Source of the DNA: Bacteroidales bacterium
GTDB lineage: Bacteria > Bacteroidota > Bacteroidia > Bacteroidales > F082
Direction of reading: 5' to 3'
Length of the DNA stretch: 64,000 nucleotides
Assembly (NCBI GenBank): GCA_017632935.1
Contig: JAGBQJ010000040.1
Span: 1-64,000 of the forward strand
The notes beneath the pieces are model-generated. The model was not told the origin of the DNA and did no database searches. It was given only the letters and a program-made list of their open reading frames with translations. This document shows, one piece after another, positions 19,076-42,606 of this stretch (position 1 is the first letter of the stretch; each line of letters opens with the position of its first letter). Made by a program: the position numbers and the translations under genes.

Positions 19076-19121
19076 AGTTTATTGCGCTGCAAAAATACGT
19101 ATTTTTGCAGCGCAATAAACT
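19076..19121. promoter_or_regulatory. Perfect 46-bp palindrome acting as divergent truA/aat promoter
   Basis: The sequence from 19076 reads identically on both strands through 19121, with its centre at AATACGTATT. A TATTTTTG -7 box occurs on the plus strand (19100-19107) and, by symmetry, on the minus strand (19090-19097). The truA ATG (19072) and aat ATG (19125) lie three bases beyond either end, so both leaders would be only about 12 nt. Confidence 0.8.
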
Positions 19122-19124
19122 GTC

Positions 19125-19907
19125 ATGAACATTTTGTACCAACTCAACGACGACGACTGCTTCTTCCCGCCTGCCGACCGCGCCAACAAGGACGGGCTGC
19201 TGGCCTTTGGTGGCGACCTCTCGCCCCAGCGTCTCGTGGTGGCCTACGCCAACGGCATCTTCCCTTGGTACAGCGAGAACGAGCCCCTGCTCTGGTGGTC
19301 GCTCGACCCGAGGCTCATCATCCGCCCCGGCGAGATGCGCGTGAGCAAGTCGCTGCGGCGCACGATACGGTCGGGGAAGTTCGAGGTGAGGATCGATACC
19401 AACTTCCGCGAGGTGATGCTGCATTGTGCAGAGACGCCGCGCAAGGACCAGGACGGCACCTGGATCCAAGACGAGATGGTAGAGGCCTACTGTGAGCTGC
19501 ACGACTTGGGCATCGCCCACTCCTTCGAGTGCTATCAGGACGGTGCGCTGGTCGGAGGCCTCTATGGCGTCTCCATCGGCAAGGTGTTTTTCGGCGAGTC
19601 GATGTTCCACACCGTCACCGACGCCTCCAAAATGGCTTTCTATCACCTGCATCAGTTCCTGCAGGCCCACGGCTTCAAGCTCATCGACTGCCAGCAGGAG
19701 ACCGAGCACCTGATGAGTCTGGGCGCCTATAGCATCCCCCGCAAGGACTTCATCGAGGAGCTCAAGGTCTTGACGAAAGAGGCCACCTTGGCCGGGAATT
19801 GGGGTAGCGATGACTGCGAGGAGCTCTACCTCAACATACAGCAGCCCGAGAAGCTGCGTTTCAGGGCCTACAACATGGATGAGGACGTCGCCCTATCCAA
19901 TGATTGA
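19125..19907 (+). CDS. aat: Leucyl/phenylalanyl-tRNA--protein transferase
   Basis: A 260-residue enzyme. It has the family landmarks FPPADRANKDGLLAFGGDLS, GIFPWYSENEPLLWWSLDPR, TWIQDEMVEAY and GKVFFGESMFH. Aat adds Leu or Phe to N-terminal Arg/Lys of proteins, marking them for ClpS-ClpAP. The last 35 residues or so (from about AGNWGS) extend past the usual family end. It is expressed divergently from truA. Confidence 0.93.
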   Translation: MNILYQLNDDDCFFPPADRANKDGLLAFGGDLSPQRLVVAYANGIFPWYSENEPLLWWSLDPRLIIRPGEMRVSKSLRRTIRSGKFEVRIDTNFREVMLHCAETPRKDQDGTWIQDEMVEAYCELHDLGIAHSFECYQDGALVGGLYGVSIGKVFFGESMFHTVTDASKMAFYHLHQFLQAHGFKLIDCQQETEHLMSLGAYSIPRKDFIEELKVLTKEATLAGNWGSDDCEELYLNIQQPEKLRFRAYNMDEDVALSND

Positions 19908-19960
19908 CAGCGCGTTGTAGGCCGCAAGGCAGAATTCCGACCCGATTTTCCACTTTTTTC

Positions 19961-19991
19961 TTTGGCTGTTCCGAGAATTTTCCTAATTTTG
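19961..19991 (+). promoter_or_regulatory. Consensus Bacteroidota promoter for arcA
   Basis: TTTG (19961-19964), 19 bases, then TAATTTTG (19984-19991): a textbook -33/-7 pair. Transcription should begin near 19998, upstream of the ATG at 20050, and excludes the longer reading from 20008 only weakly; the family start supports 20050. Confidence 0.75.
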
Positions 19992-20049
19992 CACGCATAT
20001 TTGGAGCGTGGCCCAGGCCGGCTCTTATTGTTTCACCAAATCACCTTTT

Positions 20050-21300
20050 ATGGATTCACAAGAAGGAATCAAAGTCAGTGTCAATTCTGAAATCGGAAAA
20101 CTACAACACGTTTTAGTACATACTCCAGGTCCGGAGCTGGAAAAAGTGACCCCGGAAAACGCCCACACGTTCTTGTTCAGCGACATCCTGAACATGCAGG
20201 TGGCGCAAAAAGAATACAGCTATTTCAAGAGGGTGCTGCAGAAGGCGGCTGAGGTGCATGAGATCGGTGATCTGCTCACCGACATCCTGCGGCTTGACAA
20301 CGTAAGGAACGCCATGGTCGACCGTGTGTGCAAGACCGAGGACAAAGGCTTCCTGGCCCCTTACCTGAAAGAACTGCCGGCAGAAGAACTGTCACGTCAG
20401 CTCATCGAGGGTGTGCGTCTCGAGGACGTCACCTTCATCAACAAGGACCCGTATGCCCTGCTGCCGATTCCCAACCTCTTCTTCATGCGCGACGCCTCGT
20501 TTACCATGTTCGACAACATCATGATCAGCAACATGGCCACCACGGTGCGCGCCCGCGAGTGCCTCATCCTCAACAGCATCTACAACCTGCATCCCTTGTT
20601 TGAGACCAAGGTCATCAACCCTGTGTTGAGCTATGACATCCACGGCGAGGGTACGGTGGAAGGCGGCGACGTGCAGATCATCCGCGACGACGTGGTGATA
20701 TGCGGCTTAGGCTCGCGCACCAACATGCACGGCGTGGAGGCTTTGGTGGAACACCTGAAGACCAAGGAAGGCGTGAAGCACTTGATTTTCCAAGAACTGC
20801 CCTTGGAGCCCGAGTCGTTCATCCATCTCGACATGGTGTTCACCATGCTGGATGTCGACAGGTGCATGATCTACGAGCCTGTCATCATGAACAGCAAATA
20901 CAAGACCTTCCACATCACCATCGACGGACAGAAGGCCATCGGTAAGGAGGTCCCCGACCTGATCGCTGGACTGAAAGAGCTCGGCATCGACTTGGAGCCT
21001 GTCTACTGCGGCAACCGCAACAACGACTGGGCGGCGCGCGAGCAGTGGCATAGCGGCTGCAACTTCTTCTGCCTCGAGCCGGGCAAGTTCATCGGCTACG
21101 GTCGCAACCAACACACCCTGGAGGCCTTGAACAAGGCTGGTTTCAACATCGTCACGGCCTCTGATGTGGCCAACAACAGGGTCAACCTGAGCAACGTGAG
21201 CAAATGCATCGTCGCCTTCGAGGGCAACGAGCTCTCGCGTGGCGGTGGCGGTGCGCGGTGCATGACGATGCCGGTGCAGCGAATGCCTGTGGAGTGGTAA
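20050..21300 (+). CDS. arcA: Arginine deiminase
   Basis: A 416-residue enzyme hydrolysing arginine to citrulline and ammonia. The guanidine-group-modifying fold shows PNLFFMRDASF, GTVEGGDVQII, SFIHLDMVFTMLD and the catalytic Cys in RGGGGARCMTMP near residue 405. The start MDSQEGIKVSVNSEIGKL matches the family N-terminus. No arcB, arcC or arcD gene is adjacent, so it stands alone here and the rest of the pathway, if present, is elsewhere. It ends in an intrinsic terminator. Confidence 0.94.
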   Translation: MDSQEGIKVSVNSEIGKLQHVLVHTPGPELEKVTPENAHTFLFSDILNMQVAQKEYSYFKRVLQKAAEVHEIGDLLTDILRLDNVRNAMVDRVCKTEDKGFLAPYLKELPAEELSRQLIEGVRLEDVTFINKDPYALLPIPNLFFMRDASFTMFDNIMISNMATTVRARECLILNSIYNLHPLFETKVINPVLSYDIHGEGTVEGGDVQIIRDDVVICGLGSRTNMHGVEALVEHLKTKEGVKHLIFQELPLEPESFIHLDMVFTMLDVDRCMIYEPVIMNSKYKTFHITIDGQKAIGKEVPDLIAGLKELGIDLEPVYCGNRNNDWAAREQWHSGCNFFCLEPGKFIGYGRNQHTLEALNKAGFNIVTASDVANNRVNLSNVSKCIVAFEGNELSRGGGGARCMTMPVQRMPVEW

Positions 21301-21307
21301 AGCTAAG

Positions 21308-21331
21308 GCGCTCGGTTGAGCGCTTTTTTTT
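21308..21331 (+). terminator. arcA intrinsic terminator
   Basis: GCGCTC (21308-21313), loop GGTT, GAGCGC (21318-21323), then a run of eight T. Confidence 0.88.
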
Positions 21332-21394
21332 ATGTTTTTTGGTCCTTTCTCCATGATGAGAAATCAAGGATTCGACGAAGTCAAAGGACCAAAG

Positions 21395-21775
21395 AATCTA
21401 GGCCGACATCAACGGCCCGACGCACTAGGCGGACGCCCCTCCGCCATGTCGGCCGGGCCCGCACGCCCAACCCAGTGAAGGGTGGGCGTTCCCACACTCT
21501 GTAGGCTTAGCAGCCATGTCATCCCTACGTGGGCTAGTGCGCAAGATTGGGATCTATGGCTGCGGTCTGCTGGCGTCCCTCCCCGTTTTGGCCATGACCC
21601 TCGCAGCCAAGCCTTGTGGGTCTGCCCCTACTCTCAACTCTACACTTACCACTACTCTAAACTCTACACTCTACACTCTAAACTCTACACTCTAAACTCT
21701 AAACCACCTCCTCGCCGTCATCGCGGGCTTGACCCGCGATCTCCCACAATAGAGGGTAATCATACTAACATTTTT
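21395..21775. repeat. Repeat island between arcA and the HD-domain gene
   Basis: No gene is credible here. In order: a unit with GGCCGACAT and ATGTCGGCC arms (family I, about 21402-21460) followed by a GGGCGTT tail; a family-C unit with ends GCAGCCAT and ATGGCTGC (21510-21563); a low-complexity tract of ACTCTAAACTCT/ACTCTACACTCT steps (about 21630-21705); and a TCATCGCGGG...CCCGCGATC hairpin (family H, about 21719-21743). Confidence 0.75.
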
Positions 21776-21777
21776 TA

Positions 21778-21785
21778 TATCTTTG
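21778..21785 (+). promoter_or_regulatory. -7 promoter box for the HD-domain gene
   Basis: TATCTTTG ends 17 nt before the ATG at 21803. Confidence 0.6.
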
Positions 21786-21802
21786 CTCCATAATCCATTA
21801 TC

Positions 21803-22240
21803 ATGGTAGATATCGAGCAAGTGAAACAATGGGCGGTGCGCCGTTGGACCTTAGGGGCGTTGCATGGCGTGTCGCACTGGGAGCGTGTGGAGCGCAACGG
21901 GCTGCTGTTGGCCACGCCCGAGTGTGACGTGACCATCATCCGGCTGTTCGCCTATCTGCATGACAGCTGCAGGGAAAACGACGGCTACGACCTGGAGCAC
22001 GGCCCTCGTGCGGCCCAGATGATGGAAAGCCTCAGGGACAACCTCTTGAAAGACCTCAGCGATGAGCAGTTCCTCATGCTTCAGCAGGCCTGCCGTCTGC
22101 ACACCTCGACCCATAGCACGGGCAACCCTACCATCGATGCCTGTTTTGATGCCGACCGCCTCGACTTAGGCAGGGTGAATATCAAGCCTGATCCCCAAAA
22201 AATGGCGACGGATAGAGGAAAGGAAATGGCGGGGGTTTAG
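21803..22240 (+). CDS. HD-domain putative phosphohydrolase
   Basis: A 145-residue protein with HGVSHWERV, FAYLHDSC and LEHGPRAA, the H...HD...H arrangement of small HD hydrolases. The C-terminus (DADRLDLGRV) supplies the final D. The family hydrolyses phosphate esters of varied substrates. The last ten residues or so lie next to a family-C repeat, whose first base is the last base of the TAG stop, so a repeat insertion may have trimmed or rewritten the end. Confidence 0.8.
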   Translation: MVDIEQVKQWAVRRWTLGALHGVSHWERVERNGLLLATPECDVTIIRLFAYLHDSCRENDGYDLEHGPRAAQMMESLRDNLLKDLSDEQFLMLQQACRLHTSTHSTGNPTIDACFDADRLDLGRVNIKPDPQKMATDRGKEMAGV

Positions 22241-22293
22241 CAGGCATGTCATGCCAACGTAGGCATGTGTGGTGGCATGGCATCTATGCCTGC
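22240..22293. repeat. Family-C palindromic element abutting a stop codon
   Basis: A 54-bp unit with 8-bp ends GCAGGCAT and ATGCCTGC. It begins at the final G of the HD gene's TAG stop. Confidence 0.82.
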
Positions 22294-22319
22294 GGCCTGC
22301 AGGCCTCCCTCCTCCCCTT

Positions 22320-22577
22320 TAGCCTCATCGCGGGCGAAGACCCGCGATCTCCTATACCTATGTACTACGCTTGCGCTTTCTCCTTGATAAGAAAGGACGA
22401 AAGAATCAAGGCCGACATCATCGGACCCAACGCACAAAGCGGACGCTTCCCCGCCATGTCGACCACTCCTCCCGCCCAGCCAGGTTTGGCGTAGGCGTTC
22501 CCAGTTTTGAAATGTTATACTCTCGCCCTTAGGCGTCATCGCGGGCGGTCCCTGAGCCCGTCGAAGGGCCGCGATCT
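22320..22577. repeat. Mixed repeat island at the left flank of the accessory region
   Basis: It contains a CATCGCGGG...CCCGCGATC hairpin (about 22327-22351), a degraded family-I unit (GGCCGACAT near 22411, CATGTCGACC near 22455, GGCGTTCCCAG near 22494), and a second CATCGCGGG...CCGCGATC unit (22537-22575) with CCCTGAGCCCGTCGAAGGG (family G) nested in its loop. No gene is seen from here to 22727. Confidence 0.7.
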
Positions 22578-22727
22578 TCTGCTCACTTGTACGACTTCAG
22601 ATCGAAGACCTCCTTATTCCTGCAGTTAGGTCTAGTTGCACTAGTTTTGCTCATAGTAGCAGTTAACAAAGATAGTTGTTTATGCTTATAGTCACAATGC
22701 GAAAAGTAAAGAGATTGCAAGCATGAC

Positions 22728-23102
22728 TTAACTATTCCTCTTGGCAGATAAAATCTCCCAAAAATCAGTTCCAGCTTCCATACGTTCCTTTATCTTAAAG
22801 GTGCCATATATCATCAAAACCCTAATATATCGATATGGCGTTTTACAATCAGGAAAAACCGAATTGAATACAGTAATTATTAAAGATGATTTTTTTATGG
22901 AGCCAACATTGTAATGAAGGCCTGAGGATTCGTATTCACTATCAAGTGTTTCAAAATCTATTTCATTTAAGTGTTTTGACAATGCATAAGACATTGCAAA
23001 TTGGAGAAAGGATAATACATCCCTGAAATAGTAACGCTCGCTTAGTTCTTTTGCTATTTCGCTGGCCTCAAATGAGATACCTATATTAGTTAAGTCTGAC
23101 AT
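22728..23102 (-). CDS. Unknown 124-residue protein, last gene of the methylase/SMC operon
   Basis: I do not recognise the family. The protein is mostly helical, with SFEASEIAKELSERYYF at the start, a hydrophobic LSFLQFAMSYALSKHL stretch and a basic end (KERMEAG...SAKRNS). Its ATG follows the stop of the SMC-like gene with no gap (TAA-ATG), so it is translationally coupled and probably a partner of that ATPase. It could be a small accessory subunit in the way LmuC or DndE assist SMC-type ATPases, but no sequence match to those is claimed. Confidence 0.72.
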   Translation of the reverse strand: MSDLTNIGISFEASEIAKELSERYYFRDVLSFLQFAMSYALSKHLNEIDFETLDSEYESSGLHYNVGSIKKSSLIITVFNSVFPDCKTPYRYIRVLMIYGTFKIKERMEAGTDFWEILSAKRNS

Positions 23103-25085
23103 TTATTTAATAATTGTATTGAATGATGATATTTGTTCTAGTGTTACTTCTTTTCTGAGTTTTCCTTTCAATGCATTTCTTGCTACCGTTTCTTGGATTT
23201 CCTCGGGATACGCCAGAACTATAACTTGGCGACCAAGACTTGGAAGCGAAGAGAGTATATTACTTTTATGACGAGGATCTATTCGTTGAAAAGTTGAATC
23301 CATCACGATTGGACCAGAAATTGGAGCATTTTTGTGAAGTGCTGCTATAAGAGAAATTGCAACAACTTGAACATATCCAGAAGACCTATGAGGCACTTTC
23401 ACGCCATTAGATGTGAGTATTTCAAGCCCATATTCCTCATTGATAGACAACTGTTTATAATCCGTGTTATGTGCGACAGACGTAAAATACTCAGTAGCAT
23501 CACGTTGTACATTATTCTTCAAATCAAGTTTGAATTTTTCTATCGCCTCATCAAATAAATCACAGATATCTTGGCATCTTTCCAATTCGTTTTGAGCGAC
23601 TTCAAGAGCAGTATTGGACTGATTCTTCTTTATTTGATTACGAAGTTTTTCGATTGCTTTTTTGTTTTCGTCTATCTCTCTCTGAGCATCATTTATACCA
23701 TCACGATATGTTTTTATTAATTCTGTTAATATATCATGTTTTGGAATAAGTCCTTCAATTGTCTGCTCATCACTATCTAAGCCTATTTTCCGACGTTCCT
23801 TTTCCCAACGTTCCTTTTCCAAATTCTTTAATTGGATTTTTGTTTTAAGTCTTTCTATTGTATTTATTGATAATTTCAAAATTTCAGTATGATCTTCTAT
23901 TTTTAAGCTTTTTAAAATAACTATTTCTGCCTCTAACTGTGAATATCTTTTTTGTACATCTGAATCAATCTGTAAGGCTTTAGAATTAAGCATCTCTTTA
24001 ATATGAGAAATTGCATTATCATCAATGACCGCATTACAAATAGGGCAATTGCAACCAGAGGGATGCTCTGTAACTATTTTTGATAGTATGCCTCTAATGA
24101 TTTTATCTTCTGCTATCTCAGAAATAGTACTAGATAAGTCACTTTTTTCTTTCTCTTTTCGATTAATCTGCTCATCTACAACAGCCTTTAAATTAGCCTC
24201 CCATAAACCATCTAATTTGTCTCGAATTGTATCTATTTCTTTTTCAACACTCTCCTCCCAATCAGAAATCATCTTCTCACAAGACTTAATCTCACTTGTA
24301 ATATTTCGGTATGATTCCGTGTTCTCTAATTGAGTGTCTACAACCCCCAATTCTTCTACAGCCTTACCAAGTTCTTTTTTAAGACCTTCGACGCTCTTGT
24401 TAATTTCTTCATTTTTTTCTTCGAGTTTAGCGATTTTTTCACCAGCTTGCTTTGTTCTAGAATCAGAAGTAGTTACTTTATTAAACGCATCCGAATACTC
24501 TTTGCGTATAATAGACATATTATCTTTACTGTTTTCCAGGATGGGTAGGCCAAGGATATCCTCGATGGAATCCTTAATCAGAGTATTATCATTGCCGCTT
24601 TTAAGCAAATTCTCATATTGCTGCAATACTTCACCATCAAAAAGGTAAAAACGCGATATGCCTTCAGGTATAGCAGATTTCAAAAAATGATCTCGTTCTG
24701 TTGGAGATACAATATCAGAACCTTTTTGAAGGAAAACTTCAAATGCATAATCTGCGTCACTTGTCCCTGGGGTTCCTTTCCTTCTCTCTAATGAACGAGT
24801 TAGAATGTATTCACTTCCGTCGTATTCTAAATAAAGAACAACGGACATGTTTTCTCCTCTTTCCACAGCCTCATAATTTACATATGATGCAATAGTATCA
24901 TCATATCCGTGTTCGTCAACGATATTTCCCCATAGAGCATATCTTATCGCTCTCATTATTGTTGTTTTACCGAAACCATTAAAGCCCCAGATAATCACAA
25001 CACCATCGTCCGATGGAAAATCAACTACTTGGGTGCTTTGATAAGGCCCAAAGTTGGTTATTTCAAGTTTTTTAAAACGAAGCAT
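23103..25085 (-). CDS. DndD/Rad50-like SMC ATPase of the defence-type operon
   Basis: A 660-residue protein with split ATPase ends and a long coiled coil. Residues 1-45 begin LRFKKLEITNFGPYQS with Walker A GFNGFGKTT at about 34-42; residues 190-560 are coiled coil interrupted near 350 by a CNCPIC zinc-hook-like motif; the end has a signature-like SSGYVQVVAISL and Walker B GPIVMDSTFQRID. The family covers DndD and related defence ATPases that sense or process DNA ends. No dndB, dndC or dndE partner is here; instead it is coupled to helicase and methylase genes. A role in detecting foreign DNA is inferred. Confidence 0.85.
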   Translation of the reverse strand: MLRFKKLEITNFGPYQSTQVVDFPSDDGVVIIWGFNGFGKTTIMRAIRYALWGNIVDEHGYDDTIASYVNYEAVERGENMSVVLYLEYDGSEYILTRSLERRKGTPGTSDADYAFEVFLQKGSDIVSPTERDHFLKSAIPEGISRFYLFDGEVLQQYENLLKSGNDNTLIKDSIEDILGLPILENSKDNMSIIRKEYSDAFNKVTTSDSRTKQAGEKIAKLEEKNEEINKSVEGLKKELGKAVEELGVVDTQLENTESYRNITSEIKSCEKMISDWEESVEKEIDTIRDKLDGLWEANLKAVVDEQINRKEKEKSDLSSTISEIAEDKIIRGILSKIVTEHPSGCNCPICNAVIDDNAISHIKEMLNSKALQIDSDVQKRYSQLEAEIVILKSLKIEDHTEILKLSINTIERLKTKIQLKNLEKERWEKERRKIGLDSDEQTIEGLIPKHDILTELIKTYRDGINDAQREIDENKKAIEKLRNQIKKNQSNTALEVAQNELERCQDICDLFDEAIEKFKLDLKNNVQRDATEYFTSVAHNTDYKQLSINEEYGLEILTSNGVKVPHRSSGYVQVVAISLIAALHKNAPISGPIVMDSTFQRIDPRHKSNILSSLPSLGRQVIVLAYPEEIQETVARNALKGKLRKEVTLEQISSFNTIIK

Positions 25086-25090
25086 GATAT

Positions 25091-25273
25091 TTACTTGGAT
25101 TTTATGTATTCATTAACTATAGCCCTTATTTCAGGCAATGATAAAGACGGATCATCTTGATGCTCCGATGCAGATAATAGTATTCTGTCAATAACAGAAT
25201 CTGGTATGTCTGGGTATTTTTCGTCTCTAATACCCCTGATTATTCTTTTTAGGCTATCTAAGTCAATATTCAT
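25091..25273 (-). CDS. Unknown 60-residue acidic protein within the operon
   Basis: A small ORF starting MNIDLDSLKRIIRGIRDE and ending in VNEYIKSK. It overlaps the helicase stop by 11 bases, has a strong GGAGG upstream of its ATG and ends 5 nt before the SMC gene, so it is very probably translated. It looks helical with two amphipathic segments and no cysteines. I know no family for it. Confidence 0.68.
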   Translation of the reverse strand: MNIDLDSLKRIIRGIRDEKYPDIPDSVIDRILLSASEHQDDPSLSLPEIRAIVNEYIKSK

Positions 25274-27386
25274 CTTCAAGTCCTCCTTCATTTATTGTGT
25301 TATAGTTTAGTCCAAAATTAATGGCTATTGCTTTTAGTTTTGTTACACATGTTTTGTCTTCTGACCATTCTCCAAATTGAATTGCACGACAGAGCTCAGC
25401 CTCTACGATATTAAGACGAATGTTTTGTGAATCTTCTAAATCCACTTTCTTTGGAATAACAATTGCATCATAAAGACGAGAGTAGTTTTTACCATGGGAT
25501 TTCCTCAAGATTCGGCCTCTTCTTTGAATAAATTCTCTTGGGTTCTTTGAAGAAGCAAGAATAAGTGCATGAGAAGTAGATGGAATATCCACACCTTCAT
25601 CAAGGCATTTTATTGAAACCAGAATGCCTCCTATTTTATTGAAGAACTTAAGGGTTTGTTCCCTGTCACCTGCCATTGCTGAATGATATTCAATAGCATG
25701 GATTTCCGGCAAAGAGTTAAGGGCTGTTAGGACAGAATTAAGTTGGGTGGTATCCTCGCAATAAATAATCCACTTTTGTCCTTTTTGATAATGATTTTTG
25801 ATGATTTCTTTTACCAATGTGATTTTCGATTCCGCTTTTTTTAGGATTCTTGAACGAGCAATTAATAGAGTTTGTATGCGGGAATCGTCCATTGCATTTT
25901 TGTCCTTTAACTGAGAAACGATAGCATAACGTTTTTTGATTTCCTGTGTTAATTCATCCCAACTTTTCTGTTCATTTTGGCTTAGTTCAACTGGATAAGG
26001 TTTGTAAAAGTATGGTGTTAGAACATCAGCCCTAATAGCATCGTATAGTGTAAAAGGAGGTTGTACGATAGGCCCAAAATAATCAATAATTGCTTGAGTG
26101 CCTACGGGATCGCCATATCGACGAGGAGTAGCAGACAACCCTAATCTATAGCCAGCTTCAATTGAGAAAAACCTTCTACGAGCTGGACTTCCCATTCTGT
26201 GAACTTCGTCAGCTACTACAAAAAGATGTTCACCTGATACAACTCTTGAGATGAAATCAGATGATGAAGCAGTGTCCATAACAGCTAACGTCACCATATA
26301 AAAATCATCGTGTTTTCTTGTCCACAAATTAAGAACATCTTCCCTTTTCCACTCATTATTGTTATCTCCACATGGAAGGAACTGTATTTGTAAATCTGAA
26401 AGGGCATCTTTGATTTCGTTTTCCCATTGTTTTAACAAGTCTGTAGATGGCACCAGGACAATTACAGATTTATGCTCCTCAAGAGATTTTCTAATAGCGC
26501 AAAGAGCAGAATAGGTCTTGCCGCTTCCTGTAGCATGTTCAAATATTCCTCTATGCCCTTGCTTTACCCATGCATCGAGGGCGTCACATTGATGAGGTTT
26601 AGGAATTCTTCCTCCTTTCTTTTTTTCTGCAGCCCATTTCTTAGCACGGTTAATTGATACAGAAACTTCATCAATAAAAACTTCCCAGTCGGCTGTTTTT
26701 GCTCTTTGTTTTACTTGACTACAAATCTCTTCGGGTAGCTCATATAATGACACATCCGAAATCTTGTTTTCCCAAAGATCCTCAAAATGACTGCTTGCCA
26801 ACAAGACCCTTTCTTGATCTCGTCCTCCTACCCAATTTGGGAATACGTCTATTGATTCAATATTACCGTCATCAGAGAGCCCTTTAAAAGTCTCGTTAAT
26901 AGAACCTCTAAATCCAACAATAGATTCAGAATCGTAAAATATACCAACTTTATCATGAAATAATCGCTTGATATCAGAAGACATTGTTGACTTGCCAACA
27001 GCAATTTTAATATCGATTACACCCATTGATATCAAACAAGCTAATGCTCTACTTGGCGCAGAAAGATGTTCGTTATTAAAAAGACTTTCGAATTCCTTTT
27101 GCAACGACTCTTTTAGTATTTCTTCTCGTTTAGATTCTTGACCTTCCTCAATTGCTTTTTGGTCCTCTTCAGTTAAAAATGGCGAACAAATTATCCTCAT
27201 TTTGCCACCATTTCTTACAAAATCTTTCAAAGCACTCCATGCTAAGATATATATAGTGCTTCCAAAATATCCTGAAATTCTATCATACCTCAAAGAGTTC
27301 GATAAGCAAGGTAGATAGAAAGATTCAGCAATATTATCGGAATCTTTACTATAACTAACTTTGAATTTGAAGTCTTTGAGGCTCAT
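25263..27386 (-). CDS. PLD-domain plus SF2 DEAD/DEAH helicase, restriction-type
   Basis: A 707-residue protein. The N-terminal 220 residues resemble a phospholipase-D-like nuclease domain (RYDRISGYFGS...GKMRIICSPF...FHDKVGIFYD...GFRGSINETF, with an H-x-K...S-x-N-E type site). The helicase follows: motif I HATGSGKTYSA, motif II as VVADEVHRM, motif III GLSATP, motif V CLDEGVDIP and motif VI QRRGRILR. PLD-helicases occur in ATP-dependent restriction systems, where they move along and cut DNA. ATG at 27386 is used, 4 nt after the methylase stop; an upstream TTG is also possible. Confidence 0.86.
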   Translation of the reverse strand: MSLKDFKFKVSYSKDSDNIAESFYLPCLSNSLRYDRISGYFGSTIYILAWSALKDFVRNGGKMRIICSPFLTEEDQKAIEEGQESKREEILKESLQKEFESLFNNEHLSAPSRALACLISMGVIDIKIAVGKSTMSSDIKRLFHDKVGIFYDSESIVGFRGSINETFKGLSDDGNIESIDVFPNWVGGRDQERVLLASSHFEDLWENKISDVSLYELPEEICSQVKQRAKTADWEVFIDEVSVSINRAKKWAAEKKKGGRIPKPHQCDALDAWVKQGHRGIFEHATGSGKTYSALCAIRKSLEEHKSVIVLVPSTDLLKQWENEIKDALSDLQIQFLPCGDNNNEWKREDVLNLWTRKHDDFYMVTLAVMDTASSSDFISRVVSGEHLFVVADEVHRMGSPARRRFFSIEAGYRLGLSATPRRYGDPVGTQAIIDYFGPIVQPPFTLYDAIRADVLTPYFYKPYPVELSQNEQKSWDELTQEIKKRYAIVSQLKDKNAMDDSRIQTLLIARSRILKKAESKITLVKEIIKNHYQKGQKWIIYCEDTTQLNSVLTALNSLPEIHAIEYHSAMAGDREQTLKFFNKIGGILVSIKCLDEGVDIPSTSHALILASSKNPREFIQRRGRILRKSHGKNYSRLYDAIVIPKKVDLEDSQNIRLNIVEAELCRAIQFGEWSEDKTCVTKLKAIAINFGLNYNTINEGGLEDEY

Positions 27387-27390
27387 AATA

Positions 27391-28719
27391 CTAATCAAAT
27401 AAACGGTGTCTTAAAGCTTGTAACAAATATTCTGGTCTTGCAGCCATTAGAACTTCTCCATTGTTCTTTGTTGCAAATGCAACTTTATTGTCTAATGCAT
27501 CATATAGTAACGAACTTTTGCATTGAACATTAGCATTGTATGCGAAATCTTTATGTTTTTCTGGATCGTAAAGAACAAAAACATCAAGTTCCTCTTCATA
27601 AGAAGCCAAAACAACTATTCCTTCTGAATTGTCGAAATTTCCTTTCTGCCCTCGTTCTTGATTTGGGGCTGCAAGATTAAACTTGTATTCATCCGCAGAG
27701 CGTCCTCCTGGAGGATGGGTTGCTGGGAAAATATATACTATTAGTTTTGTGCGAATTGGTTCAGTAATGTCTACAGCAAGAGGCCTTTCATCAAAATCAC
27801 TATGACTTTTCACAGCAGATCCCAGTGCTTCAACAAATTTTCGCTGAATTATCTCTCTTTGTTTTGAGACTTTAGCTTTTGTGGACATAATATCAATTAG
27901 TTCGGTGATCAACCTATTAGATATTGCAACATACTCTTGGCTTATGTCAAAACCTATAAACTTTCTACCAAGTTTAATAGCCTCGTAACCAGTTGTTCCA
28001 GAACCAACCCAGGGGTCTACTACTAAATCGCCTTTTGAGGTTGTTGCAAGAATGTATTTTTCAGGGATATAGCCAGGTTGCATTGCTTGATGCTCGCCCT
28101 GTTTACCTGAGACTGCTCCTTTAATGACATTCAATGGCAAAGCACCTTTGGGATTAGGTACGATGTATTTAGCTTTACGTACATACGAAAGGCCATTGTG
28201 TCGTGGCTTATATTCATTATTTGCATAAGCCTTCAATGACTCTGCGTCATAAGGTCTTCTTATGGCATCAAGGTTAATCTTCCATTTTGGACTAACTGAG
28301 AACCATAGATTCTGTTCATAAGCATCTTGACAAGCTACTCTTAATCCTGTCGGTACTGGATTATCTTTAATCCATATCTCAATATCAACACAATAAAACC
28401 CCCATTTTTCCTCAAGTAGAATTGCCAATTTCTCAACAACAAGCGATCGTCTGCTATTTAATGATGTAGTCGCTCGTTCGCGATTAGCTTTGATATTGAT
28501 GACTAGAAAGCCATCATCACGCAATTTCTTTTTCGCTTCATCAATAAATGGAGATATTTTGTCAATATATTCATTAGAAGCCCAATTCCCATAATTCCTG
28601 TCGGCGTTAGGATATGGTGGGGAACCATATATCAACTTGACGGATTTATCAGGTAGAGACGATAAACCCTTCGCACCGTCAATGCATTCTATTTCGAATA
28701 TACTGTCTTCAGAAATCAT
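27391..28719 (-). CDS. DNA methyltransferase B with extra C-terminal domain
   Basis: A 442-residue beta-class amino-methyltransferase: motif IV GSPPYPN near residue 33 precedes motif I DPWVGSGTTGYEA near 238. SPPY is usual for N4-cytosine but is also seen in N6-adenine enzymes. After about residue 310 comes a domain (IRTKLIVYIFP, THPPGGRSADEYKFNL, VFVLYDPEKH) not part of the methylase fold; it resembles domains I associate with restriction enzymes and may read DNA. It overlaps methylase A by four bases (ATGA). Confidence 0.85.
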   Translation of the reverse strand: MISEDSIFEIECIDGAKGLSSLPDKSVKLIYGSPPYPNADRNYGNWASNEYIDKISPFIDEAKKKLRDDGFLVINIKANRERATTSLNSRRSLVVEKLAILLEEKWGFYCVDIEIWIKDNPVPTGLRVACQDAYEQNLWFSVSPKWKINLDAIRRPYDAESLKAYANNEYKPRHNGLSYVRKAKYIVPNPKGALPLNVIKGAVSGKQGEHQAMQPGYIPEKYILATTSKGDLVVDPWVGSGTTGYEAIKLGRKFIGFDISQEYVAISNRLITELIDIMSTKAKVSKQREIIQRKFVEALGSAVKSHSDFDERPLAVDITEPIRTKLIVYIFPATHPPGGRSADEYKFNLAAPNQERGQKGNFDNSEGIVVLASYEEELDVFVLYDPEKHKDFAYNANVQCKSSLLYDALDNKVAFATKNNGEVLMAARPEYLLQALRHRLFD

Positions 28720-29576
28720 AAGTCAAGTTTCATTCTTTCTAATGCAAGGTCACAATAGTCCTTATTAGCATCTATTCCAATCCACTTACGATTGTATTTT
28801 TCAGCAACAAAACAAGTGGTTCCAGAACCTGAGAAAGGATCCAAAACCAAATCCCCTTCATTTGTTCCAGACAATATAAAAAACTCTGCCAACTGAACTG
28901 GGAAACGAGCTGGATGGAGAACACCTCTTTCTTTGCAAAGCTTGAAAAAGGTATCATTACTACTTGTGTTGGCAATTGAGATAACACTACCTGGATCTGC
29001 CCCTCCATGATTGGTCCACTTAACAGCGCAATTGAATGAATGAGTGCTGGGGCGAATATTATCTTCACGACCACCTTTTCCTTTACCCTCAAGATATTTC
29101 GCCATATCAGGGCTGTATTTCTTACGAATAGGATCCAAATTAAAAGTCCACTTATCACCTTTGCTAAACCAAAAACAATATTCATGAGACTTTTTGGTTC
29201 TCCCGTATTTTCCAGTACCATAAATGTTTGGAGGAGTAGACGGATTGTGCCAAATATAATCACGTACAAGATTAAAATTCAGTTCTTTACAAAGGAATAG
29301 TACAAGTTCAAAGACATATGTATGCTGAAATCCGTTAACAACCTTATCATTGATATTCAATACAAAGCTGCCATTATCTTTTAATACTCGATAAATTTCA
29401 CGTGCCATGGGGCCAAACCATTCCACATACTTATCTGGTTTAATAGAGGCATTATCCACCCCATATGAACGCTGATCGGCATAAGGAGGAGAAGTAAGTA
29501 CAAAATCCACACTACAATTATCAAAAGATCGTAGAACTTCTTCACATCTACCGTTTATAAAACAATTTACTTGCAT
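28716..29576 (-). CDS. DNA methyltransferase A, first gene of the operon
   Basis: A 286-residue beta-class DNA amino-methyltransferase with TSPPYADQRSYG (motif IV) near residue 28 and LDPFSGSGTTCFVAEKY (motif I) near 245. The target-recognition region lies between, with PNIYGTGKYGRTKKSHEY. It is shorter than methylase B and lacks its extra domain. Two non-identical methylases in one operon suggest a site needing separate enzymes for each strand. A minus-strand TATCTTTG at 29601-29608 lies 25 nt upstream. Confidence 0.87.
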   Translation of the reverse strand: MQVNCFINGRCEEVLRSFDNCSVDFVLTSPPYADQRSYGVDNASIKPDKYVEWFGPMAREIYRVLKDNGSFVLNINDKVVNGFQHTYVFELVLFLCKELNFNLVRDYIWHNPSTPPNIYGTGKYGRTKKSHEYCFWFSKGDKWTFNLDPIRKKYSPDMAKYLEGKGKGGREDNIRPSTHSFNCAVKWTNHGGADPGSVISIANTSSNDTFFKLCKERGVLHPARFPVQLAEFFILSGTNEGDLVLDPFSGSGTTCFVAEKYNRKWIGIDANKDYCDLALERMKLDL

Positions 29577-29600
29577 TAAAACACCAAATTAAATCGGATG

Positions 29601-29608
29601 CAAAGATA
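29601..29608 (-). promoter_or_regulatory. -7 promoter box of the methylase/helicase/SMC operon
   Basis: CAAAGATA on the plus strand is TATCTTTG on the minus strand, 25 nt from the methylase A start. The rest of 29577-29857 shows nothing else recognisable. Confidence 0.6.
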
Positions 29609-29857
29609 TAAATTACCCACAATATGTCATCATTCCTTTTTGAATTATTACGACAGGCATTCTTTGATAATCTTTAAAAACCTTCCTTCTCAACCCTTTC
29701 ATCTAATAAAGCGATGGATTTGTAAAAAATCAGTTTAAAAGTCATCAAACATCTGAGATGTCCTCCCCAACCCATAGCCTCAATCACTATACGGAATGGC
29801 ATCAAATCGCCCCTGCATATAGGCTTTCTCCAAGTCCATGTTTTCGCGGAAGCCTAC

Positions 29858-29894
29858 AAAAAATCTCCCCACAAGCCCAACGGCTCATGGGGAG
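29858..29894 (-). terminator. Intrinsic terminator of the fic gene
   Basis: Arms CTCCCCA (29865-29871) and TGGGGAG (29888-29894) with an inner AGCC/GGCT pair, followed on the minus strand by a run of six T. It insulates the operon below from fic. Confidence 0.8.
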
Positions 29895-29978
29895 GCATTA
29901 GGATTAAACCCTTGGTCTGCATTTGTATGATCTACCCTCTCTCCATCGCCTCAACAAGGATCCGTTTCTCCAGCTCTG

Positions 29979-31019
29979 TCAATGCCCTTTTTTCGTATTC
30001 TTTATTTCCCAATGTCCAGTCTTATTGCTGCCAATACGGACAATGACTCCTTCCTTTTTCAGTTCGTTGAGTCGACGTTTGATAGTGGCTTCAGAAACAC
30101 CTATCAATGCAGCATATCCGGCGTAATTCAACGAGCCATCCCGTAGAACCGCCCGATATAATTGCTGTTTTATCGGGTCAGAGAATGTGTTTATCGGGTC
30201 AGAAGCAATACTTATCGGGTCAGCGTATTGCGATTGCTTATATTCTTCAATCTCTTTGCGGAGGTTCCTAATGTGCTCATCCATCATGAATTCACGGAAC
30301 GGTTCAAAGGAATCCTGTTTACGAGCTTCAACCAGTGCCTGAATGTATTCCGCCTTGTCTTCCTTGACAATCTTCACTGGCACCAATCCGAACTCGTATT
30401 GCAGATGGTTCATTACAAGGCGCGACATGCGTCCGTTGCCATCCACCCAAGGATGGATGGTCACCAACTGGCAATGGGCATCGAAACTCAACAGATACTG
30501 ATCTATCAGATTATCGGTATCCATCAACTGACGACGATGTTCATTCGTCAACTGGCAGAACTCAGCCAACTTCCCTGGAACTTTCTGGAAATTCATGTAA
30601 GACTGACCACCTGTTCCAGCCGTAACACCTAACAAACGGAGGTCGCCTTTCGACGCGTCAAACGATCCGTTTGGCGTGTTATATTGCGAACCTGTATTCT
30701 TCATCACCAATGCCGACAGCGTTTTGAGCATATCTACCGAGAAGTCAGCGTGTTTGCGAGCCAATTGCATGGAATGCTCGTAGGCCGCTTTCAGGTCGAG
30801 GTTCATCATCTGCTCCTGAAGCGAACGCCCTTTGGCCGTAATGCCTTCGTCGAACAGCAACTGGTTCTCAATCTCAGTCACCGTCGAGCCTTCGATGGCC
30901 GTGGAATGGGTAATGAGCGAGTAGAGATAGAACTTTTGGTAGTCTATCTGCTCTGTTATGCCCAATGAGTGGTATTCATTGAGCACTTCAAGGAACCTAT
31001 TTATCTGCTCTTTTTTCAT
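29979..31019 (-). CDS. Fic-domain protein with N-terminal inhibitory motif and C-terminal winged helix
   Basis: A 346-residue protein. The inhibitory motif STAIEG is at residues 39-44 (class II arrangement), the catalytic HPWVDGNGRMSR near residue 190, and a winged-helix domain (YAALIGVSEATIKRRLNELKKEGVIVRIG) closes the protein. Fic enzymes AMPylate proteins; here the helix is expected to block ATP until displaced. Residues near 270-290 contain three tandem copies of an SDPI-x3 heptad encoded by an exact 21-bp period. Confidence 0.9.
   Translation of the reverse strand: MKKEQINRFLEVLNEYHSLGITEQIDYQKFYLYSLITHSTAIEGSTVTEIENQLLFDEGITAKGRSLQEQMMNLDLKAAYEHSMQLARKHADFSVDMLKTLSALVMKNTGSQYNTPNGSFDASKGDLRLLGVTAGTGGQSYMNFQKVPGKLAEFCQLTNEHRRQLMDTDNLIDQYLLSFDAHCQLVTIHPWVDGNGRMSRLVMNHLQYEFGLVPVKIVKEDKAEYIQALVEARKQDSFEPFREFMMDEHIRNLRKEIEEYKQSQYADPISIASDPINTFSDPIKQQLYRAVLRDGSLNYAGYAALIGVSEATIKRRLNELKKEGVIVRIGSNKTGHWEIKNTKKGH
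30170..30223. repeat. 21-bp tandem repeat in the fic coding sequence
   Basis: TTATCGGGTCAG occurs at 30170, 30191 and 30212, exactly 21 bp apart. It encodes repeated SDPI heptads in the linker between the Fic and winged-helix domains. The reading frame is kept if copy number changes. Confidence 0.85.
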
Positions 31020-31676
31020 TACTCCATTACATTGTTCTCATTTAGAAATTGCAAATATATAAACTTTTCGGGGTTTACCTATTATCATCGAGCAGATAAC
31101 AAGCAAAAAAGCTTTTCACAGACTCTTCCAAACTCAAAGGGCAGCGACGGCTGCCATAGATGCTCTCGGCTTCTCCTCGGCATGACATGGCTGCTGGACT
31201 TGACCCTTTCACGGCTCCACACCCACCCCCGAAAAAGTTTATACCCATATCTAAACTTTTTCTGATATGGGTGTAAAAAAGTTTACATATGGGTCTCACG
31301 GGAAAAAGATATGGGGTATTCGGGCCGCGGGCCACGGCCGACATCCGAAGGAGCGGTCGCAAGGGACGGCTCCGTCAGTCATAGATCCCATGCCTTTGCC
31401 CACATTCCCACGTAGAGATGACATGTTTCCCGAAGCCTGCAATACTGGGAACGCCTGCGCTTAACTGGGACGGGCGGGAAGGCATGACCGACATCCGAGC
31501 TGCGCCAGAAAGGGACAGACTAAGGGCTTGAGCCTCACAGAGCGGCGCTTGTCGTTTGCCTTCGCAGAAGGCACTCCGCGACCTGAGGGTCAGGCCCTTA
31601 GGCTGACCGCGCGAGGGGATTGATGTCGGTCTTGAATTTTCGCTTCCTTTTTTTCAAGAAAAAGGAAGAAAGAGTC
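31020..31676. repeat. Repeat island at the right flank of the accessory region
   Basis: No gene is supported. It holds a short family-C-like unit (31150-31195, CATAGATGC and GCATGACATGG), an AT-rich inverted pair ACCCATATC / GATATGGGT (about 31240-31270), a GGCCGACATCC segment near 31336, a divergent family-C core (31380-31425) and a GGGAACGCCTG...GACCGACATCC unit (about 31447-31497, family I, degraded). A G+C-rich block with AGGGCTTGAGCC and GGCCCTTAGGCTG follows to 31615. Confidence 0.6.
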
Positions 31677-31920
31677 TTGCTGGTTTATAGAAAAGTTGTA
31701 ATTTTGCGGGCAGAAATAAGTCAGGAATCAGGTATGACTTTCCGAAAGTCCGCGCGGTGGCCTATCGTTTCAGTACGACTTACCTCCTGCATTCTGCGGC
31801 AAACATCATCGGATGGGAAATGGCGACTGCCAAGCCCCTTATAACTCCGATTGAAAGCACTCTGTACAAGCGATTGCTTCAAGCAATGACGACTTTTTTA
31901 CAGAGTGCTTTTTTTATGTT
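31677..31920 (+). ncRNA. Candidate small RNA with its own promoter and terminator
   Basis: TTG at 31677-31679, 19 bases, then TAATTTTG (31699-31706) is a good promoter, predicting a start near 31713. At 31856-31917 the arms AGCACTCTGTA and TACAGAGTGCT, with an inner GATTGCTT/AAGCAATG pair and a T-run, look like a terminator. The transcript would be about 200 nt. It could encode a 36-residue peptide starting at 31734 (MTFRKSARWP), so a small mRNA is the alternative. I cannot match it to a known RNA family. Confidence 0.4.
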
Positions 31921-32345
31921 TGAATAACAGTAATACAGTATTGTACTTTGTCTTTGGTTCGTCTTACGATACCAACCATCAGTTTGACTTCACCGACACC
32001 TGGGAGATCGTATTTCATCCACAATAGTTTGTTGAATTGCTTTTGGTTTTTGTCTTTAGGCTTGGCTTTTACTGTTCTATACTTCTTCGCCATAGTTAAT
32101 ATGGAATCCAATTGGAGTACCGCCAAGGTGGAAAGATAGCTTTTCGCTGCTTGATGGCTGGTCTCATCTATAGAGACAAATCTAATGTTGATGAAGTCTT
32201 TCAGAGCTAGGTTATACCTTTTCAATGACGGGTTCTTCATTTTCCAATCTTGATAAAACTGCCAAATGATTTGTTTCCTGATCTTGAAATCTTCTTTGCC
32301 ATCGCCTGTTGGAATCTCAATAGTTTTGTTGCCTTGTGCTTCCAT
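31914..32345 (-). CDS. Unknown 143-residue basic protein
   Basis: Starts MEAQGNKTIEIPTGDGKED, is lysine-rich and probably alpha/beta, with FKIRKQIIWQFYQDWKM near 20-36 and a C-terminal GEVKLMVGIVRRTKDKVQYC. I do not recognise the family; the look is that of small accessory-region proteins of Bacteroidota. It converges on the candidate RNA at 31713, sharing the terminator hairpin. Its upstream region is the 94-bp family-F repeat also found at 42489. Confidence 0.65.
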   Translation of the reverse strand: MEAQGNKTIEIPTGDGKEDFKIRKQIIWQFYQDWKMKNPSLKRYNLALKDFINIRFVSIDETSHQAAKSYLSTLAVLQLDSILTMAKKYRTVKAKPKDKNQKQFNKLLWMKYDLPGVGEVKLMVGIVRRTKDKVQYCITVIQT

Positions 32346-32368
32346 GATAGATATGAATTATTGTTTGC

Positions 32369-32462
32369 GCTGCAAAGATGCAAACCTTGTCAAGACCTAC
32401 CCGTTGAACAAACATTTGTAGTCGACAGCAGTCGTTTGTTGTCGTTTGCTGTCGGGTATATT
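32369..32462. repeat. Family-F 94-bp repeat (copy 1)
   Basis: A 94-bp segment nearly identical to 42489-42582, containing CGTTGAACAAAC, TTTGTAGTCGACAG and the internal GTCGTTTGTTGTCGTTTGCT direct repeat. It lies just upstream of the minus-strand gene starting at 32345. Confidence 0.75.
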
Positions 32463-32492
32463 ACTGAAAAAGAATGAAATAAAAACATTGAA

Positions 32493-32648
32493 TATCCCCC
32501 TCAAGTACCCCCACAAGCTCCCCCTCAAGTACCCGAACAAGCACCCGACAAGTTACCCGACAAGTACAGGACAAGTACAGGACAAGTACAGGACAAGTTG
32601 CACACAGATAACCCAGATATTTTGAAACTGGCAAAGGCCATCATTTGA
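32493..32648 (+). pseudogene. Remnant encoding a PPQV/PDK-rich protein tail
   Basis: Reading from about 32493 gives PPQVPPQAPPQVPEQAPDK, then a tail ending LKLAKAII and a stop, with no start codon (a TGA lies just upstream). Proline-glutamine linkers of this type are familiar in AlbA_2-type ATP-binding regulators of Bacteroidota, so this may be a fragment of one. The DNA contains tandem GACAAGTACAG units. Assignment is tentative. Confidence 0.35.
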
Positions 32649-32667
32649 ACCTTCTACCCTTTTTAAC

Positions 32668-32958
32668 GCAGGCATAGATCCCATACCGCCGCACAGGCCA
32701 GCGTAGGGATGACATGCCTGCTAGGACTTACCTGCTTAGGAGATCGCGGGGCTTCCCTTCGACCCTTCGACAGGCTCAGGGACCTCAGGGGCCGCCCGCG
32801 ATGAGGCCTAGAGGAGGGATGCCAGCAAGCCGCAGCCATAGATGCCATGCCACCGCACATGCCAACGTTGGCATGACATGGCTGCTTAGCCCACCAAGCG
32901 TGGGAACGCCTACCCTCACCCGGGCTGGGCGCGCAGGCCCGGCCGACATGGCGGAGGG
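32668..32958. repeat. Repeat island with two family-C elements, downstream of the GH2 gene
   Basis: A 54-bp family-C unit at 32668-32721 (ends GCAGGCAT / ATGCCTGC) and another at 32832-32885 (ends GCAGCCAT / ATGGCTGC). Between them a GATCGCGGG...CCCGCGATGAG hairpin holds a CCCTTCGACAGGCTCAGGG unit (family G) in its loop. After 32885 comes an inverted family-I unit ending GGCCGACATGGCGG at the GH2 stop. Confidence 0.8.
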
Positions 32959-32959
32959 G

Positions 32960-37018
<4,059 letters not shown>

Positions 37019-42471: not shown

Positions 42472-42488
42472 CGTTTGAATGATTTGAT

Positions 42489-42582
42489 GCTGCAAAGTAA
42501 CGAAACTTGTCAAGAGTAAGCCGTTGAACAAACGTTTGTAGTCGACAGTAGTCGTTTGTTGTCGTTTGCTGTCGGATATATT
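42489..42582. repeat. Family-F 94-bp repeat (copy 2)
   Basis: The same length as copy 1 at 32369 and nearly identical over the last 60 bp, including TTTGTAGTCGACAG and GTCGTTTGTTGTCGTTTGCT. Confidence 0.75.
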
Positions 42583-42606
42583 GTTGGTTTACAGTTAGTA
42601 GAAAAA

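Follow-up and report, generated by a model that had tools for sequence, protein, structure and literature searches.

A predicted PbeABCD-type anti-invader operon with two linked DNA methylases in a Bacteroidales genome

PbeABCD systems, also named CxC ABC-ATPase systems, are the closest described relatives of a six-gene operon found on the minus strand (29576-22728) of the DNA analyzed here, a stretch of 64,000 nucleotides from a Bacteroidales bacterium (contig JAGBQJ010000040.1 of assembly GCA_017632935.1; hereafter, the window). Two reports are drawn on throughout, in the sections of them that are cited. In Haloterrigena jeotgali A29, PbeABCD goes together with DndCDEA, its self-mark being phosphorothioation, and protects against the virus SNJ1 by ~10^4-fold, all four pbe genes being needed for the full effect and no cleavage of viral DNA being seen (Xiong 2019, PMC6459918). 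In the same report, 155 of 320 solitary PbeAC lie close to methyltransferases, and methylation is put forward as a possible other mark. Rakesh, Aravind and Krishnan, crediting their ref. 24, describe N4-cytosine methylases and MTaX1 in the neighbourhoods of CxC/PbeABCD, and also argue that the family cleaves DNA (Rakesh 2024, PMC10853773).

The window operon shares with the H. jeotgali A29 system the PbeA-B-C-D order and the types of its parts, and differs from it in containing two beta-class methylases and MTaX1, with no DndC found (PMC6459918). With the CxC/DndE systems it has in common an HKD nuclease-SF2 helicase, a small protein, an ABC ATPase, a putative DndE cognate, predicted N4-cytosine methylases and MTaX1; unlike them, it carries MTaX1 fused to the second methylase, as do two relatives from the same phylum, and its zinc hook is CxxC and not CxC (PMC10853773). 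Methylase-linked PbeABCD with MTaX1 is already described in print, and the window holds a further member. What is added here is that two further Bacteroidota contigs share the order of the six genes, that Bacillota have an order with a separate MTaX1 gene, and that the main methylase lineage forms one clade on the PbeA tree.

Regarding canonical Dnd (DndBCDE-DndFGH), PbeC of the window is a relative of DndD, the search of the host genome for DndC was negative, and those proteins of the island that were scanned gave no DndB, DndC or DndFGH model. NgoAVII/CglI-type restriction-modification systems combine a PLD nuclease, an SF2 ATPase and a methylase, nuclease and ATPase being separate proteins and an SMC-like scanner being absent. 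The window resembles them in these three activities, but fuses PLD and SF2 domains and adds an SMC-like ATPase.

As read from its sequence, the operon is a PbeABCD system in which two DNA methylases would take the place of phosphorothioation. We assign a probability of roughly 0.7 to its being an anti-invader system of the PbeABCD (CxC-ATPase/DndE) kind with base methylation, and not phosphorothioation, as self-mark. A first-pass annotation of the same DNA, made from the letters and their open reading frames, had proposed a modification-based anti-phage system, which remains the best reading, and had named the enzyme classes (two beta-class methylases, a PLD-helicase and a DndD-like ATPase) correctly, as judged by Pfam and PADLOC. 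Its further claim that no known system fits the mix has to be withdrawn, the PADLOC models for PbeA and PbeC being strong, placing two of the six proteins (neither small one) in PbeABCD, and methylase/MTaX1 versions being described by Rakesh 2024 (PMC10853773). Its exclusion of BREX, DISARM and Lamassu is borne out, with BrxH, DrmD and LmuB far weaker than the best PADLOC models (best LmuB E 7e-32), as is that of Dnd, for which it had noted the lack of DndB and DndC.

The six genes and their products

Both methylases, M1 and M2, belong to Pfam N6_N4_Mtase (E 2.4e-52 and 1.9e-38, respectively), M2 with a C-terminal MTaX1 domain (E 1.4e-19). M.PvuII (1boo), an N4-cytosine enzyme, is the nearest solved structure for M1 (E 1.4e-42) and the nearest match in the PDB for M2 (E 4.3e-19). 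M1 contains the motifs TSPPY (motif IV) and DPFSGSGT, and M2 contains GSPPY (motif IV) and DPWVGSGT, SPPY being typical of N4-cytosine enzymes. By these similarities, M1 and M2 probably methylate the host DNA, with N4-cytosine as the predicted target base. A B3- or PUA-like reader fold, guessed for MTaX1, finds no support in the search of its profile against solved structures, where the best match was only E 1.1.

Both enzymes occur in 15 loci. On a methylase tree, the M2 proteins of these loci group, all 15, in a single clade, with 100 in the Shimodaira-Hasegawa-like approximate likelihood ratio test (SH-aLRT), and all 15 M1 proteins fall in another set (SH-aLRT 97), joined by the single methylases of L014 and L017. 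They are therefore an old pair, inherited together, with separate jobs. The simplest division, proposed for this branch only, would probably give each enzyme one strand of an asymmetric site. L033 offers another example of paired methylases within the methylase lineage, its two adjacent enzymes (684 and 586 aa) having as their counterpart one protein of ~1260-1350 aa in the alphaproteobacterial loci L027, L029, L031 and L034 and in the acidobacterial L030.

PbeA corresponds to PADLOC PbeA (E 7.4e-214) and to Pfam ResIII and Helicase_C, and its architecture is that of a PLD (HKD) nuclease fused to an SF2 helicase. Among proteins of at least 550 aa, to which the residue counts were confined, the PLD residues H148, K150, N168 and E181 and the helicase residues K294, D397 and E398 are without exception the same, both in PbeA of the methylase lineage (54/54) and in other PbeA (70/70). 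Shorter PbeA proteins, excluded from these counts, occur outside the methylase lineage, such as that of 457 aa in L007. Such strict conservation of the PLD site argues that nucleolysis matters, in agreement with Rakesh 2024 (PMC10853773) and in tension with the cleavage found absent in Xiong 2019 (PMC6459918), as far as the cited sections of both go.

PbeC matches PADLOC PbeC (E 7.6e-157) and, at E 2.3e-51, PADLOC DndD, together with weak matches to the Rad50 and SbcC models. Its hook reads CPIC, a CxxC form unlike the CxC from which the clade takes its name, as seen in the alignment and in a table of hooks.

The first-pass annotation had described the two remaining small proteins as unknown. 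This stands insofar as neither PbeB nor PbeD matches Pfam, PADLOC, NCBIfam or PHROGs at E 0.01, and no longer does insofar as position and family place them as PbeB and PbeD. PbeB lies between PbeA and PbeC, where relatives carry homologues, and its jackhmmer family is represented by a single ORF per locus in 42 loci, a number that includes copies of one locus. The homologue in L006 is named "DNA modification system-associated small protein" at NCBI; because direct BLASTP between the two is weak (E 0.019), the assignment relies on the iterated family and on position. In the methylase lineage PbeB has a recognizable conserved core.

PbeD follows PbeC and belongs to the same family in relatives, with BLASTP to the L006 protein at E 1e-7. 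Rakesh 2024 (PMC10853773) identifies PbeD, in the section cited, as a DndE cognate with two ribbon-helix-helix domains. The PbeD profile compares weakly with phosphorothioate-type PbeD (hhalign P 0.0012 over 102 columns) and weakly with DndE (P 0.003, probability 10%, 112 columns), the comparison of phosphorothioate-type PbeD itself with DndE reaching only P 0.015 and the control of PbeB against DndE giving P 0.47. None of 45 PbeD members matches the DndE model, two of them match DUF3502 weakly, and the best match of the profile among solved structures (E 0.39) is to unrelated proteins. The profile comparison thus points, weakly, in the same direction as the published assignment.

All six ORFs, head to tail, were confirmed. 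M1 and M2 overlap by 4 bases; M2 and PbeA overlap by 8 bases if PbeA starts at its listed TTG, or are 4 bases apart if it starts at the ATG at 27386; PbeA and PbeB overlap by 29 bases from the first ATG of PbeB, or by 11 from the second (25273); PbeB and PbeC are separated by 5 bases and PbeC and PbeD by none. The tight packing reported earlier is recovered with the ATG starts at 27386 and 25273, which give overlap 4, gap 4, overlap 11, gap 5 and gap 0. The single promoter box reported near 29601 was located as well, as TATCTTTGC at 29608-29600, which we take to be a Bacteroidota-like -7 box. The A+T-richer composition of the operon is also evident, G+C being 0.335-0.389 in 1-kb steps from 23 to 30 kb and 0.47-0.57 in the adjoining steps. 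A chance array is excluded, since other Bacteroidota carry these six genes in an identical order (see below).

Table 1. Coordinates of the operon, its motifs and its surroundings in the window
Feature	Position	Strand	Remarks
M1	28716..29576	-	286 aa; beta-class DNA methyltransferase; N4-cytosine predicted
M2	27391..28719	-	442 aa; second beta-class methyltransferase, fused to MTaX1
MTaX1 domain of M2	27412..27747	-	M2 aa 325-436; own gene in Bacillota relatives
PbeA	25263..27398	-	711 aa (TTG start) or 707 aa (ATG start at 27386)
PLD active-site stretch of PbeA	26856..26957	-	H148-x-K150 ... G-S-x-N168 ... E181
PbeB	25091..25291	-	66 aa; 60 aa from second ATG
PbeC	23103..25085	-	660 aa; SMC/Rad50-like ABC ATPase
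Zinc-hook motif CNCPIC of PbeC	24036..24053	-	aa 345-350
PbeD	22728..23102	-	124 aa; predicted DndE-like DNA-binding partner of PbeC
Presumed promoter -7 box TATCTTTGC	29600..29608	-	upstream of M1; Bacteroidota-like motif
Inserted island, 11.6 kb	21332..32961		between arginine deiminase and GH2 beta-galactosidase genes; absent from same-genus G042
Fic protein, island cargo outside the operon	29979..31019	-	Pfam Fic E 5.2e-12; PADLOC SoFic E 8e-26

Relatives, trees and the pairing of mark and effector

Relatives were sought by scanning one genome per species for PbeA; of 504 matches, the 80 most similar to the window PbeA were retained. The six genes in the same order were found in L026, from Bacteroidales, with the agreeing L004 (G117, same order of bacteria; PbeA 56% identical to that of the window), and in L013, an Alistipes contig, L002 and L004 being treated as copies of L026. 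Among the loci surveyed, the fusion of MTaX1 to M2 is seen only in the window, L004/L026 and L013, the common order in Bacillota being M1, M2, a separate MTaX1 of ~180 aa, PbeA, PbeB, PbeC and PbeD. The survey comprised 91 loci (the window and L006-L095), of which nine were set aside because no PbeC of 550 aa or more lies close to their PbeA, and the mark of each was assigned from the genes present in the fetched stretch, up to 10 kb to either side. Among the resulting 82 PbeA+PbeC loci, an M1/M2-family methylase accompanies 46, a DndC-family gene 12, both none and neither 24. The methylase-helicase and SMC parts do not, then, always occur apart, in line with the first-pass view of them as one set.

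The first trees, a 77-row PbeA tree and a PbeC tree, require one change of mark. Further genomes were then drawn by phylum and searched with the PbeA profile, which matched in 23 of 398 Bacillota (the phylum of G542), 6 of 398 Pseudomonadota (the phylum of G543) and 10 of 395 of the window's own phylum, the centre genomes being counted in. An M1/M2-family methylase or MTaX1 was present in none of the 35 non-centre loci of these phylum samples, and the methylase lineage looks, therefore, rare among the Pbe systems in them.

An unrooted 125-row PbeA tree includes these phylum-sample loci and plasmid loci, L094 (a copy of L093) and L007, L009, L055, L067, L173 and L225 (PbeA below 550 aa) being left out. 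The main methylase lineage forms on it one clade of 54 rows (SH-aLRT 99), 45 with a methylase, nine with no mark found and none with phosphorothioate genes. Its neighbour is L161, a phosphorothioate-type locus on an archaeal plasmid. A second, separate pairing with methylases is found on the haloarchaeal plasmids L162, L164 and L166, which lack MTaX1 and have the methylases downstream and CxC hooks. At minimum, two changes of mark are needed among 91 labelled loci, or three if L163 is labelled methylase, on a sampling biased by the choice of the first loci by similarity to the window PbeA. Frequent exchange of marks, which would be expected from the "mix and match" described in print, was rejected, since the trees need only one, two or three changes. 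Considering the wide spread of the phosphorothioate type around the methylase clade, we infer, on a tree without a root, that phosphorothioation came first.

The zinc hook was also considered as a diagnostic of the mark. In the first set, the rule that CxxC goes with methylases and CxC with DndC fitted 58 of 58 loci (46 + 12), the remaining 24 of the 82 having no identified modification gene. It was retested on 50 held-out loci (L199, of 3.5 kb, being left out), the hook being readable in 47 and a modification gene being present in 32 of these. Only 22 of the 32 fitted, and with ten failures the rule was rejected, chiefly because phosphorothioate-type PbeC of Bacteroidota also has CxxC. The misfits were six CxxC hooks with DndC/SspD, all from the Bacteroidota sample, and four CxC hooks with a methylase, among them L163, whose methylase stands beside its own restriction enzyme, and L162 and L164, whose methylases are 7-10 kb away. 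Bacteroidota phosphorothioate-type PbeC with CxxC, contrary to the CxC of the clade name, is found in L217-L222.

A phage origin was set aside as well. The phage records contain no PbeC match at E 1e-10, six IMG/VR contigs hold a PbeA relative, and one of these, L090, is near-identical to L021, which suggests host sequence in a viral bin. Two further observations concern the relatives. In the proteobacterial branch, PbeD is followed by a gene for ~830-880 aa (L039:14621-17257, L041-L044, L049, L050, L052, L064 and L067), with RNA polymerase alpha-CTD and sigma region 4 domains in the L039 copy, the only one scanned. In Anaerovibrio lipolyticus (G545), a methylase-marked Pbe locus (L014) coexists with one of the phosphorothioate type (L175), which makes this genome a natural test of interference between two marks.

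The island and the candidate self-mark

In G042 (L131), from the same genus, only one base separates the counterparts of window segments 19081-21331 and 32962-36829, and the DNA that stands between these segments in the window is thus an insert. It starts right after a hairpin and T-run behind the arginine deiminase gene. Related genomes hold other cargo here: in G049 both flanks are present with ~12 kb of other DNA between them, including type I restriction-modification genes, while TmtA and a type I restriction endonuclease in G029, and an LmuB/PbeC-like ATPase (E 1e-19) in G021, stand beside arginine deiminase, the only flank contained in those two stretches. By this comparison, the site seems to be a hotspot at which defence cargo is exchanged; this favours a defence role but is no proof of it. 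Within the island, the gene at 31914-32345 (143 aa) matches no family. Short repeats near the island ends (21397-21569, 22239-22503, 32334-32480, 32819-32954 and 42483-42593) match L131 or L132 at one or more positions and are possibly involved in exchange at the hotspot.

PbeC of the window is present in 2 of 149 relatives, its own genome counted. In the phylum sample, the PbeC search, less sensitive than the PbeA profile, gave as its only other match a DndD (G430). No DndC was matched in the host genome (92% complete) with a query that does find DndC, at 44-45% identity, in G430 and G332 of the same phylum. This negative with a positive control makes a phosphorothioate mark in the host unlikely, and the two linked methylases would be the obvious source of the mark.

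Proposed mode of action and its alternatives

Gene identities, intact active-site residues, co-inheritance and location in a recent insert can be read at the level of sequence. As to the modified base, the division of strands, what MTaX1 does and how the invader is finally stopped, we infer the following course. M1 and M2 would mark the host DNA, probably at N4-cytosine and probably paired on an asymmetric site, one strand each, while PbeC with PbeD may act as an ATP-driven scanner on DNA. MTaX1 would report the methylation state of the site and link modification to PbeA, and PbeA with PbeB would stop unmethylated invader DNA by nicking, cutting or stalled replication. The defence character of this course is supported by the other defence genes that the island site carries in related genomes. 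A more specific version is tentative and rather doubtful in its entirety: that self and non-self are told apart, at the cost of ATP, by the SMC-like scanner and the reader MTaX1 in place of a type I specificity subunit, DNA being licensed when both strands of an asymmetric site carry N4-methylcytosine and unmarked DNA being halted mainly by a replication block, and that the switch from phosphorothioate to methyl is rare and happened once at the base of the lineage, mark and effector being tightly matched.

Several observations weigh against a methylation-marked PbeABCD system as proposed. PbeB and PbeD fit no family model, and the link of PbeD to DndE is weak. MTaX1 ends directly before the PbeA start in 36 of 56 methylase-lineage loci and is dispensable in parts of this lineage, and the haloarchaeal plasmids represent a second PbeA branch that pairs with methylases without it. 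The two-strand argument is not general, because some loci (L006, L014, L017, L039 and others) have just one methylase. The absence of DndC is not final in a genome that is 92% complete, and an SspD query, which gave no match in the host genome, had no positive control. Finally, the literature searched, which was not exhaustive, contained no experiment on a methylase-linked PbeABCD member.

Among other explanations, the least unlikely is a suicide mode, in which infection, by releasing PbeA from PbeB or stripping the methyl mark, would turn PbeABCD against the DNA of the cell itself, the cell dying before phage release. It has been proposed for the family, with PbeB as a releasable inhibitor (Rakesh 2024, PMC10853773), and the conserved nuclease site of PbeA is compatible with damage to self-DNA. 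We consider it unlikely, given that (i) a phosphorothioated virus escaped, pointing to recognition of the invader DNA, (ii) pbeB was required for protection (both in the cited sections of PMC6459918), and (iii) PbeB has here a conserved core, which fits less well with the published picture of a fast-evolving, disordered protein. That the methylases and PbeABCD are two independent neighbouring systems is quite improbable: their genes overlap or nearly touch, their order recurs in different phyla and they share one methylase-linked clade, even though nearby methyltransferases are treated only as possible partners in that part of Xiong 2019 (PMC6459918) and the methylase of the plasmid locus L163 accompanies its own type II restriction enzyme.

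A housekeeping or gene-regulatory operon for DNA repair or methylation, built around a Rad50/SbcC-like ATPase and a helicase-nuclease, would account for the weak Rad50 and SbcC matches of PbeC. We deem it very improbable in view of the sparse presence of PbeC among relatives and of the recent insertion at a site used by other defence genes. Least credible of all is a module that still relies on phosphorothioation made elsewhere in the cell, with the methylases as secondary; the tested PbeABCD does use phosphorothioate marks, as the section cited of Xiong 2019 (PMC6459918) states, but the controlled search for DndC in the host came out negative.

A methylase-marked PbeABCD member bears on two matters. 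How PbeABCD stops a virus is disputed, with no cleavage seen in 2019 and cleavage argued in 2024, in the sections cited of these works. A member marked by methylation could be moved into ordinary laboratory strains, its mark being mappable by long-read sequencing and switchable by mutating two enzymes, and it would make two questions testable: whether the chemistry of the mark or merely a blocked site is recognized, and whether the PLD domain cuts. In addition, the small number of mark changes on the PbeA tree bears on how freely marks are exchanged between modules.

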